This document shows positions 1,581 to 59,406 of a DNA stretch of 64,000 nucleotides, piece after piece. How positions within the stretch are numbered: position 1 is the stretch's first letter; every line of letters starts with the position of its first letter. Both the position numbers and the translations under genes were made by a program. Origin of the DNA: Bacteroidia bacterium (GTDB lineage Bacteria > Bacteroidota > Bacteroidia > Flavobacteriales_D > Cryomorphaceae); the NCBI GenBank assembly GCA_030427905.1, contig JAUICL010000002.1, positions 744,001-808,000 on the forward strand, in the 5' to 3' direction. The notes beneath the pieces were generated by a model. That model saw only the letters and a program-made list of their open reading frames with translations, was not told the origin of the DNA and ran no database searches.

Positions 1581-1877
1581 ATGAACTTTATTCTAGAGAA
1601 TTTAAGTGAAGTATACTTCATATGCTTTTGCATACTCATTGGGGTTGAAGTTATCGCCAATGTGCCGGCCATTCTTCACACCCCACTGATGTCAGGGGCC
1701 AACGCCATAAGCGGAATTATTGCCGTTGGAGCCATTATTCTATTGCTTCAAACCCCACCTACCGATTATCTCAACCTCGCTCTTGGTAGCCTGGCTTTAC
1801 TATTGGGAACTACCAATGTGGCTGGTGGATTTTTTGTTACCCACCGCATGCTTGCCATGTTCAATTCCAAAAAATAG
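1581..1877 (+). CDS. pntAB: NAD(P) transhydrogenase subunit alpha part 2, membrane domain
   Basis: This 98-residue protein consists of about three hydrophobic helices (EVYFICFCILIGVEVIANV, the alanine/glycine/isoleucine-rich middle, and the LALGSLALLLGTTNVAGGFF segment). The TTNVAGGFFVTHRML region is typical of the transhydrogenase alpha-2 subunit, where the domain ends VTdRML. It contributes part of the membrane proton channel. The gene starts 5 bp after pntAA and ends 2 bp before pntB, so translation is probably coupled. Confidence 0.94.
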   Translation: MNFILENLSEVYFICFCILIGVEVIANVPAILHTPLMSGANAISGIIAVGAIILLLQTPPTDYLNLALGSLALLLGTTNVAGGFFVTHRMLAMFNSKK

Positions 1878-1879
1878 CC

Positions 1880-3265
1880 ATGCTCGCCGTTCTCGAAACC
1901 ACGTATTTTCTATCCATTCTATCTTTTCTCGGTGGCCTTAAATTCTTGAGTAGTCCGAAGCGGGCCAAGCTTGGAAACACGCTCGCCGCCGCAGGGATGG
2001 TTCTCGCCTTAGTGGCAAGTATTGTCGCATTCAGTGCAGATGCACTTCCAAGACTCAACTTAATTCTCATCGCATCGATGCTCGTCTTAGGGACATTCTT
2101 GGGCCGGATCATGTCCCAGAAAGTAGAAATGACGAAAATGCCACAATTGGTATCATTTTTCAATGCTACCGGTGGCGCCTGCGCCATGTTAATCGGTGTG
2201 GTAGAAGCAAACCAAGGAACAGGACTCACATGGGTTCAAGAAAGTGTTCTATTGATCGGGTCGGCTACTGGAGCCATTGCTGCATCTGGAAGCATTATCG
2301 CCTTGCGCAAGCTTTCTGGCAAGTTGAAAGACCGACGGTCTATAGGGCTACAGGTTCTGTCTAAATTATTCGTTTTGTCACTGATTGCCCTCGTGGTTCT
2401 GATCCCTCTCGATGTGATAGGTTTAAGTTTCTTTCAGGGGACTCTGATCGTTGTTGGAATCGCTCTGGTATACGGTGTTTTATTCGTATTGCCAATCGGT
2501 GGTGCTGATATGCCCGTGGTTATCTCTCTTTTGAATGCGGTAACGGGTATCGCAACAGCGCTGGCTGGGGCCCTGTACAACAACAAAGTCATGTTGGCTG
2601 GGGGGATCATTGTTGGTGCGGCTGGAATCATACTTACTATCATGATGTGTAGAGCTATGAACCGATCTTTGCTGAAGGTTCTCACAGGCTCGTTTAATGT
2701 AGGGAGTGGAACAAAGAACGATTCTCGTGAGCAGAACATTATTCAAACCAATGTATCTGAAACAGCGCTTCAACTCACCCACGCTACACGCATAGCCATC
2801 ATTCCGGGTTACGGTTTGGCAGTAGCACAAGCCCAACACCTTTGCAAGCAGCTAGAAAAGCTCCTTCACCAGCGTGGTACTGTAGTACACTATATCATCC
2901 ACCCTGTAGCTGGTCGAATGCCAGGCCATATGAATGTGCTTTTGGCCGAAGCCAATATCGACTATGAATTGCTCAAAGAGATGGACGAGGTAAACGATGA
3001 AATGAGCACTTACGATATGGCTTTGGTAATCGGTGCAAATGATGTAGTAAACCCAGCCGCTGAAGAAGACGACGATAGCCCTATATACGGGATGCCGATT
3101 ATCAGAGCGCACGAATGCTCCAGCACGGTTGTGTTCAAACGCGGCATGAGCAAAGGATATGCCGGTGTTCCAAACAAACTCTTTGAACACAAGGGCTGCA
3201 AACTCTTGTTTGGCGATGCTAAAACGAGTCTACAAGAAATTATTAATGAACTGAAATTGGTTTAA
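1880..3265 (+). CDS. pntB: NAD(P) transhydrogenase subunit beta
   Basis: The 461-residue protein has roughly eight or nine membrane helices over its first 260 residues, then a soluble NADP(H)-binding domain III. Domain III is marked by IIPGYGLAVAQAQH near residue 306, VAGRMPGHMNVLLAEA, and VIGANDVVNPAAEEDD, all strongly conserved in PntB. It completes the proton-translocating transhydrogenase with the two preceding genes. Only 1 bp separates it from the next gene, so the operon probably continues. Nothing looks truncated. Confidence 0.96.
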   Translation: MLAVLETTYFLSILSFLGGLKFLSSPKRAKLGNTLAAAGMVLALVASIVAFSADALPRLNLILIASMLVLGTFLGRIMSQKVEMTKMPQLVSFFNATGGACAMLIGVVEANQGTGLTWVQESVLLIGSATGAIAASGSIIALRKLSGKLKDRRSIGLQVLSKLFVLSLIALVVLIPLDVIGLSFFQGTLIVVGIALVYGVLFVLPIGGADMPVVISLLNAVTGIATALAGALYNNKVMLAGGIIVGAAGIILTIMMCRAMNRSLLKVLTGSFNVGSGTKNDSREQNIIQTNVSETALQLTHATRIAIIPGYGLAVAQAQHLCKQLEKLLHQRGTVVHYIIHPVAGRMPGHMNVLLAEANIDYELLKEMDEVNDEMSTYDMALVIGANDVVNPAAEEDDDSPIYGMPIIRAHECSSTVVFKRGMSKGYAGVPNKLFEHKGCKLLFGDAKTSLQEIINELKLV

Positions 3266-58248: not shown

Positions 58249-58920
58249 CTAAAACACCTGTTTCACCTGCCCAATCTGATTGAGAAACTCATTTCGAACT
58301 TCGGGTTGTTCGAATGCACCGCCGTATTCAAAAGTGGTGGTGAAACTCGATTTGTCCTTAATACCACGCGATGAGACGCAAAGGTGCTTTGCCGAAATCA
58401 TTACCATCACACTTTCGGTTTTCAAAACGTTTTGTAGTTCAGTGAGAATCTGCAGACAAAGCCTTTCTTGAACCTGCGGACGCTTCGAAAAATAATCCAC
58501 TAAGCGGTTAATTTTTGAAAGTCCGATCACGTGCTTTTCCGGAATATAGGCTACATGAGCAAACCCCGAGATGGGAAGGAAGTGGTGTTCGCATACGGAA
58601 TCGACTGTGATATTTTGCTCGATCAGCATTTTGCCATAACCGTATTTATTCTCAAACACCGAAAGTCTTGGTCTATCAGCCGGATTTAACCCCCCAAACA
58701 ATTCTTTGACGTACATTTTAGCCACCCGGTAGGGCGTACCTGAAAGGCTATCATCACTTAAATCGAGCCCTAGCTCTTCCATAATCTTTGAAAAGTGATG
58801 CTGAATGGAAGCAATTTTAGCATCGTTCGGCTTATCGAATGCATCGGTTCGCATAGGAGTATCGATGCTCGTGGAGATGTGATTATCTCCCAATGATTCA
58901 ATCTCTTCAATGGTATTCAT
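58249..58920 (-). CDS. folE: GTP cyclohydrolase I
   Basis: From the ATG at 58920 the protein is 223 residues; the first 30 or so are extra to the catalytic domain. Zinc and substrate motifs are TVDSVCEHHFLPISGFAHVA, SKINRLVDYFSKRPQVQERL and SVMVMISAKHLCVSSRGIKD, with the Cys/His ligands in CEHH and HLCVSSRG. It converts GTP to dihydroneopterin triphosphate for folate or pterin. Its start is 8 bp after the MerC stop, so the two share a promoter under the palindrome at 59388-59406. Confidence 0.95.
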   Translation of the reverse strand: MNTIEEIESLGDNHISTSIDTPMRTDAFDKPNDAKIASIQHHFSKIMEELGLDLSDDSLSGTPYRVAKMYVKELFGGLNPADRPRLSVFENKYGYGKMLIEQNITVDSVCEHHFLPISGFAHVAYIPEKHVIGLSKINRLVDYFSKRPQVQERLCLQILTELQNVLKTESVMVMISAKHLCVSSRGIKDKSSFTTTFEYGGAFEQPEVRNEFLNQIGQVKQVF

Positions 58921-58928
58921 CACTATTT

Positions 58929-59339
58929 TCAGTTTTGGTGAGCACAACACCCATCTCCATCGCACCGACAGAAACGATGATTGTAAATGTGAAGGGCAAT
59001 TATAGCCAAAGCAGGTACGTAGATAAACTCGTGCGATACCACGCCCAGTTCAAAGGTTTCATTGAGAATGGTGAGAAGCAATACCGACCAACTGGCCCAC
59101 ATGGCGATAGCTACCCAGCGTTTACTCGTTTTTGCCGTGGCATAGTAGATGGCGATAAATGAAATAACAAGAAAAATGTAATCTATAGCCTGCCACCACA
59201 CGGGCGTATCGGCGCAGCAAGTAGAAGTACAAACACTAGCTACGAAAATGAAGGGAGTTGCTACGCAATGTACGAAGCACAGGGCGCTGGCTGCTGCTCC
59301 TACGAGATCGGAGTTGAACGCCTTTTGAAACTGAACCAT
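58929..59339 (-). CDS. MerC domain membrane protein
   Basis: From the ATG at 59339 (MVQFQKAFNSDLVGAAASAL) the protein is 136 residues with four membrane helices. Cysteine pairs in CFVHCVATPF and VCTSTCCADTP, and a Cys/His-rich C terminus (HRFCRCDGDGCCAHQN), are characteristic of MerC-type metal-binding membrane proteins. In Bacteroidota these genes are often near metal-responsive regulators. Upstream, the promoter overlaps a 19-bp palindrome, and FolE follows, so a zinc- or iron-responsive operon is likely. Confidence 0.88.
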   Translation of the reverse strand: MVQFQKAFNSDLVGAAASALCFVHCVATPFIFVASVCTSTCCADTPVWWQAIDYIFLVISFIAIYYATAKTSKRWVAIAMWASWSVLLLTILNETFELGVVSHEFIYVPALAIIALHIYNHRFCRCDGDGCCAHQN

Positions 59340-59364
59340 AAAACCAGGATTAGCAAATTCAGCA

Positions 59365-59394
59365 CAAATGTACGCTTTGATTTTATTATTGCAA
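59365..59394 (-). promoter_or_regulatory. Promoter of the merC-folE operon (TTG-N19-TACATTTG)
   Basis: On the minus strand the -33 TTG (59392-59394) and the -7 element TACATTTG (59365-59372) are separated by 19 bp, the consensus arrangement. It predicts a short leader of about 20 nt before the MerC ATG at 59339. Confidence 0.72.
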
Positions 59395-59406
59395 CATTGT
59401 TGCAAT
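59388..59406. promoter_or_regulatory. Perfect 9-1-9 palindrome, candidate Fur-family (Zur-like) operator
   Basis: ATTGCAACATTGTTGCAAT is a perfect 19-bp inverted repeat (9-1-9), the geometry of Fur/Zur-family boxes. It covers the -33 element of the MerC promoter, so a bound repressor would block RNA polymerase. Which family member binds is inferred from geometry and from the metal-related genes. Confidence 0.68.

Follow-up and report, generated by a model that had tools for sequence, protein, structure and literature searches.

The merC-folE operon of the window (the whole stretch of DNA analysed, 64 kb of a 3.81-Mb genome that its protein relatives place in Bacteroidota) lies behind a perfect palindrome that very probably serves as operator for Zur, a Fur-family repressor responding to zinc, with the two genes being derepressed in zinc shortage. 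The evidence comes from the sequence of the box, its geometry on the promoter, its conservation in relatives, the genes beside its other copies, and regulators that resemble Zur. If the Zur reading is true, MerC and a zinc-needing GTP cyclohydrolase I (FolE) belong to the zinc-shortage response of many Bacteroidota.

The box and its promoter

An earlier note on this DNA had described a perfect palindrome that precedes merC-folE and overlaps the -33 TTG of a near-consensus promoter. Direct reading bears out both statements: ATTGCAACATTGTTGCAAT is a perfect 9-1-9 inverted repeat, and the promoter, TTG-N19-TACATTTG on the minus strand, starts inside it (Table 1). The palindrome has no second occurrence at ≤3 mismatches within the 64-kb window. 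Symmetry by itself is weak evidence because perfect 9-1-9 palindromes occur three times in the window and 0–2 times in each of 20 shuffled windows, and this speaks for a functionless chance inverted repeat. It is conservation, rather than symmetry, that is the evidence that counts for the box.

Table 1. Features of the merC-folE locus (positions are those of the window)
Feature	Position	Strand	Basis or remark
Palindromic operator, proposed Zur box (-33 class), ATTGCAACATTGTTGCAAT	59388..59406	.	Direct reading; conservation upstream of merC
-33 element TTG, within the palindrome	59392..59394	minus	TTG-N19-TACATTTG
-7 element TACATTTG	59365..59372	minus	Fits TAnnTTTG
merC, four-helix Cys/His-rich membrane protein, 136 aa	58929..59339	minus	PF03203
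folE, zinc-dependent type IA GTP cyclohydrolase I	58249..58920	minus	PF01227

Conservation in relatives

The box is widely conserved upstream of merC. Among 80 named merC loci, mostly from Flavobacteriales (Polaribacter, Maribacter, Winogradskyella, Formosa, Tenacibaculum and others), 64 have TGCAAC-N3-GTTGCA with at most one mismatch no more than 450 bp upstream of merC, compared with 0 of 400 shuffled upstream regions. The same loci often hold a divergent fur-family gene (41/80), folE directly downstream of merC (37/80) or a COG0523 gene within the locus (30/80). A search of 150 genomes of the order gave 64 sites for WTGCAACNNNGTTGCAW and 5 for the reversed control, as counted from the site listing. 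At least one gene of the query set adjoins 46 of the 62 distinct sites in the order, a count that is descriptive because the query set was drawn from genes first seen beside boxes. TonB receptor genes are the most frequent neighbors of the 62 sites (23), followed by fur (18), merC (11), COG0523 genes and related lipoprotein genes (5 each), with SEC-C peptide genes and folE (3 each) being rarer.

Where on the promoter does the box lie? The named loci have 37 exact boxes upstream of merC. In 14 of them the start of TAnnTTTG precedes TGCAAC by 6 bases and in 11 it follows TGCAAC by 31–33 bases, meaning that the box is placed either on the -7 or on the -33 element. The window box belongs to the -33 class, with an offset of 32. 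Partner boxes cluster at a distance of 37–39 bp (94 of 113 counts over all loci, some of them from close relatives, with double counting of a pair possible), and a pair spacing of 38 bp is the exact difference between the -33 and -7 box offsets. Hence the earlier placement of the box on the -33 element stands for the window, and it is refined for the wider set, in which the box covers -33, -7, or both when paired 38 bp apart. As in Zur-type operators, a palindromic Fur-type box thus overlaps the promoter, at -33 in the window and at -33 or -7 in relatives. Both placement and pairing are as would be expected if a repressor obstructs polymerase at either promoter element or at the two together, and some 38-bp pairs between divergent genes may serve two promoters. 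The chance reading is in effect refuted by the counts of 64 against 5 sites and of 64/80 against 0/400 loci and by the 38-bp pairing, and its probability is negligible: relatives keep this sequence at the same positions of the promoter, even with MerC identities of only 40–60%.

Further boxes in the same genome

The earlier note had asked whether further copies of the palindrome precede zinc or iron genes, and two copies do precede genes linked to zinc. TTGCAACNNNGTTGCAA itself is unique in the genome, with one extra copy at 1 mismatch. This copy (C1:826884), 23 kb away, lies upstream of a gene for a ZigA-like COG0523 GTPase (C1:825-827 kb) and has a partner box 38 bp away at C1:826846 (L002, L100). 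The promoters of zigA and merC share one layout, TTG-N19-TAnnTTTG; at zigA one box lies over -33 and the other over -7. The GTPase matches the NCBIfam ZigA model (NF038288) over its whole length with 559 bits, slightly short of the curated threshold (600 bits). A weaker copy at C4:133560, with 3 mismatches and an intact inner palindrome, precedes three same-strand genes encoding a lipoprotein, a TonB receptor and a Fur-family protein; the best NCBIfam match of the receptor is ZnuD, at 74 bits, well below the cut-off. At 3 mismatches the genome search gave 16 matches and the reversed control gave 9, which is near noise, so only matches with regulatory context were used. One outcome that the earlier note named as decisive against it, a palindrome unique in the genome and unconserved in relatives, is thus not what was found. 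Its suggestion of repression by a Fur-family protein gains support from a conserved box that precedes ZigA-like COG0523, TonB receptor and fur genes. A znuABC-like operon (C5:278-282 kb) has no box at ≤3 mismatches, which counts against the Zur reading.

Candidate regulators

The genome encodes five Fur-family proteins, in keeping with the expectation of a Fur or Zur gene. A longer one is conserved in the family and lacks the Zur-type cysteine. Four are short, with YAxC or FAxC, HxHFxCxxC and a C-terminal CxxC. The Fur proteins linked to boxes resemble Zur more than Fur or PerR. When a profile of box-linked short Fur proteins is compared with solved structures, Zur takes ranks 1, 2, 4 and 5 and one Fur comes third. 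The top matches are Zur of E. coli (4mtd, 7e-12) and Zur/FurB of M. tuberculosis (2o03), with Zur of S. coelicolor (3mwm) following the Fur; that Fur apart, Fur and PerR structures score lower. The cysteine of the YxxC motif of the linked regulators aligns with a cysteine of those Zurs, which we take to be a zinc ligand. Short Fur proteins score 25 and 23 bits with the NCBIfam Zur model, far under its cut-off of 167, so this is a similarity to Zur and not a match to the model.

Could the regulator sense something else? The box may be the operator of a Fur-family sensor of another metal (iron, manganese) or of peroxide, with merC-folE as part of that response, but we consider this unlikely. Taken singly, the Fur proteins of the genome give weak, comparable scores with the Fur, PerR, Irr and Zur models, TonB receptors serve iron too, and the box of one relative adjoins an MntR/DtxR-like gene. 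Against this, the partners of merC-folE are zinc genes (the ZigA-like GTPase and the ZnuD-like receptor), and Zur structures head the matches of the linked-regulator profile, whose cysteine aligns with that of Zur. Of the metals left open in the earlier note, zinc is therefore the most likely, and iron is not favored.

Two of the short Fur proteins, encoded on contigs C4 and C1, compete as the Zur candidate, a point against the Zur reading. The C4 protein is slightly favored: its gene is part of the TonB-receptor run behind a box, and it falls loosely with box-linked proteins of family f3. On a long branch (100/98), the C1 protein clusters with Fur proteins encoded divergently to merC in families f1, f8 and f9. 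Comparison within the organism's own family is mixed. A strict box is missing from G001 and G007, whose only Fur is the long one, and a short fur gene directly adjoins the box in G002, G003 and G005 (with 1 mismatch in G005); these cases speak for a Zur operator. G004, by contrast, lacks a strict box although it has a short fur, which weighs against one.

A separate observation concerns the C1 fur promoter, which has a variant box, TGCGAATATGTCGCA, twice, with A changed to G in the half-site. The copies (L017:1794-1870) lie in the short region between the fur-like gene G000:C1:736526 and a divergent thioredoxin-reductase-like gene. The C1 Fur may have a shifted DNA specificity, and the variant box is a further complication for the Zur reading.

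The genes behind the box

The products named in the earlier note, MerC and GTP cyclohydrolase I, are borne out by Pfam matches of 67.8 bits to PF03203 (cut-off 27.6) and 197.5 bits to PF01227 (cut-off 27). The end of merC (58929) and the start of folE (58920) are separated by a gap of 8 nt. The ATG at 59339 is the most likely start of merC, in preference to the TTG farther upstream where the mechanical ORF begins; the longer frame from TTG 59405 is probably a mechanical extension, since relatives align from near the ATG. The structural model of MerC has four helices (pLDDT 74), and a PDB fold search with it gave no significant match. Alignment of relatives shows conserved residues in a CxxHC motif in helix 1 and in a C-terminal CxC plus one more Cys.

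PF03203 is named for mercury transport, and merC-folE could accordingly be an operon for resistance to mercury or cadmium, switched on by the toxic metal. This is highly improbable. The protein does resemble MerC of mer operons in its PF03203 match, four membrane helices and cysteine pair in helix 1, but the pair is spaced CxxHC and the neighbors are zinc and folate genes. No mer genes lie beside merC in the window, where its neighbors are folE and genes for a PIG-L protein and a SET protein, or in the inspected relatives, where they are folE, COG0523 and fur. In addition, the operator is of the Fur type and does not have MerR spacing. The idea that MerC is a plain substitute for a missing ZnuABC was also considered; a strong ABC-3 match is missing from most MerC-bearing genomes of the sample, but the idea is weak for this genome because it has the znuABC-like operon.

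The FolE protein has the zinc ligands (Cys, His, Cys) of the zinc-dependent enzyme, with its CEHH and HxC motifs aligning with E. coli 1fbx, and merC-linked relatives retain them, one truncated sequence excepted. The genome has three FolE-IA copies (G000:C5:42181, G000:C5:478913 and that of the window). FolE2/FolE-IB (PF02649) is absent from all 8 genomes of the organism's own family, while control genomes matched. As a side result, the merC-linked FolE proteins do not form one clean clade (p-AU 0.006). The clade includes a few copies that do not directly follow merC, and the merC-folE linkage was thus probably gained or lost more than once; one such copy (L207) was scored as unlinked merely through the distance rule for linkage.

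Proposed mechanism

When zinc is plentiful, a zinc-loaded Zur dimer would bind TGCAAC-N3-GTTGCA across the -33 element and exclude RNA polymerase from the merC-folE promoter. When zinc is short, the metal would leave the repressor and the operon would be transcribed, such that MerC and extra FolE-IA are made. The ZigA-like COG0523 GTPase and the lipoprotein, ZnuD-like TonB receptor and fur run would be induced together with it. The receptor and MerC would most likely carry zinc across the two membranes, and the GTPase would most likely load zinc into enzymes, with the new FolE-IA copy maintaining folate synthesis. What the analysis shows is the sequence, the geometry of the promoter, the conservation, the partner genes and the resemblance of the regulators to Zur; we infer the binding to DNA, the direction of the zinc response, the role of MerC as an importer and the loading of FolE by the GTPase.

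A bolder, joint proposal is that many Bacteroidota, as a large group, have a zinc-shortage regulon of their own design. In it, MerC would be an inner-membrane zinc importer and not a mercury protein, an extra zinc-dependent FolE would be loaded by a co-regulated COG0523 chaperone and not replaced by a zinc-free isozyme, and two Zur boxes 38 bp apart could be used to cover both elements of the Bacteroidota promoter. We put this forward tentatively, at somewhat below an even chance for all parts together.

Comparison with known systems

The predicted system is a Zur regulon, a kind already known. Zur regulons have been reviewed for Proteobacteria, Firmicutes, Actinobacteria and cyanobacteria, with both 9-1-9 and 7-1-7 palindromes described as operators; the two reviews make no mention of Bacteroidota (PMC6103462, PMC8000910). 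A palindromic operator, a COG0523 GTPase, TonB receptors, a GTP cyclohydrolase and a Fur-family regulator are common to the known regulons and this one. The differences are the sequence of the box, the membership of MerC and the presence of the zinc-dependent FolE-IA instead of FolE2/IB. These three features (the box, MerC membership and a zinc-dependent FolE in place of the zinc-sparing one) were not found described in the open-access literature, in which we likewise found no description of a Bacteroidota Zur box or of a link between MerC and zinc.

Two systems are of particular relevance for FolE. First, when B. subtilis is short of zinc, its COG0523 GTPase ZagA supports FolE-IA (Chandrangsu et al. 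2019, as summarized in PMC10882993). In that account, as here, a COG0523 GTPase of the zinc-starvation response stands alongside a zinc-dependent FolE-IA; the B. subtilis response also has FolE2 (IB), whereas the family studied here is without IB and FolE-IA itself is boxed. Second, Cupriavidus metallidurans has one IA and two IB FolE proteins, with IB being needed when zinc delivery is impaired (PMC10882993). Several FolE copies are thus common to both organisms, there protecting folate synthesis in zinc shortage, but here there are three IA copies and no IB.

What would follow from a regulon of this kind? First, an operator motif and a regulon can be offered for zinc homeostasis in Bacteroidota, both of which are testable. 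Second, a widespread protein annotated as mercury resistance would be shifted into zinc biology. Third, a zinc-dependent FolE runs contrary to zinc-sparing logic and in this respect counts against the Zur reading; it raises the question of why more of a zinc enzyme should be made in zinc scarcity, when other bacteria change to a zinc-free one.

Other genes beside the box in relatives

Several relatives have other genes at the box. In G036 it lies between a TonB receptor gene and the divergent MntR/DtxR-like gene (L074:749-1405 and 1604-3016). In G005 and G006 it lies between divergent lipoprotein genes (L021, L022, L129); one of the lipoproteins is rich in histidine motifs (HMHIRFRV, HGHYHLIV), and these are possibly surface zinc binders. 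In G038 an alpha-carbonic anhydrase-like protein, another zinc enzyme, begins at the box (L116:1057-2034). Finally, L030 (about 1327-1470) and also L031, L027, L032, L038, L185 and L215 have, between the box and merC, a gene for a Cys-rich mini-protein that ends in the SEC-C-like motif GRNDPCPCGS..KFKKCCG, and given this position it is probably co-regulated.
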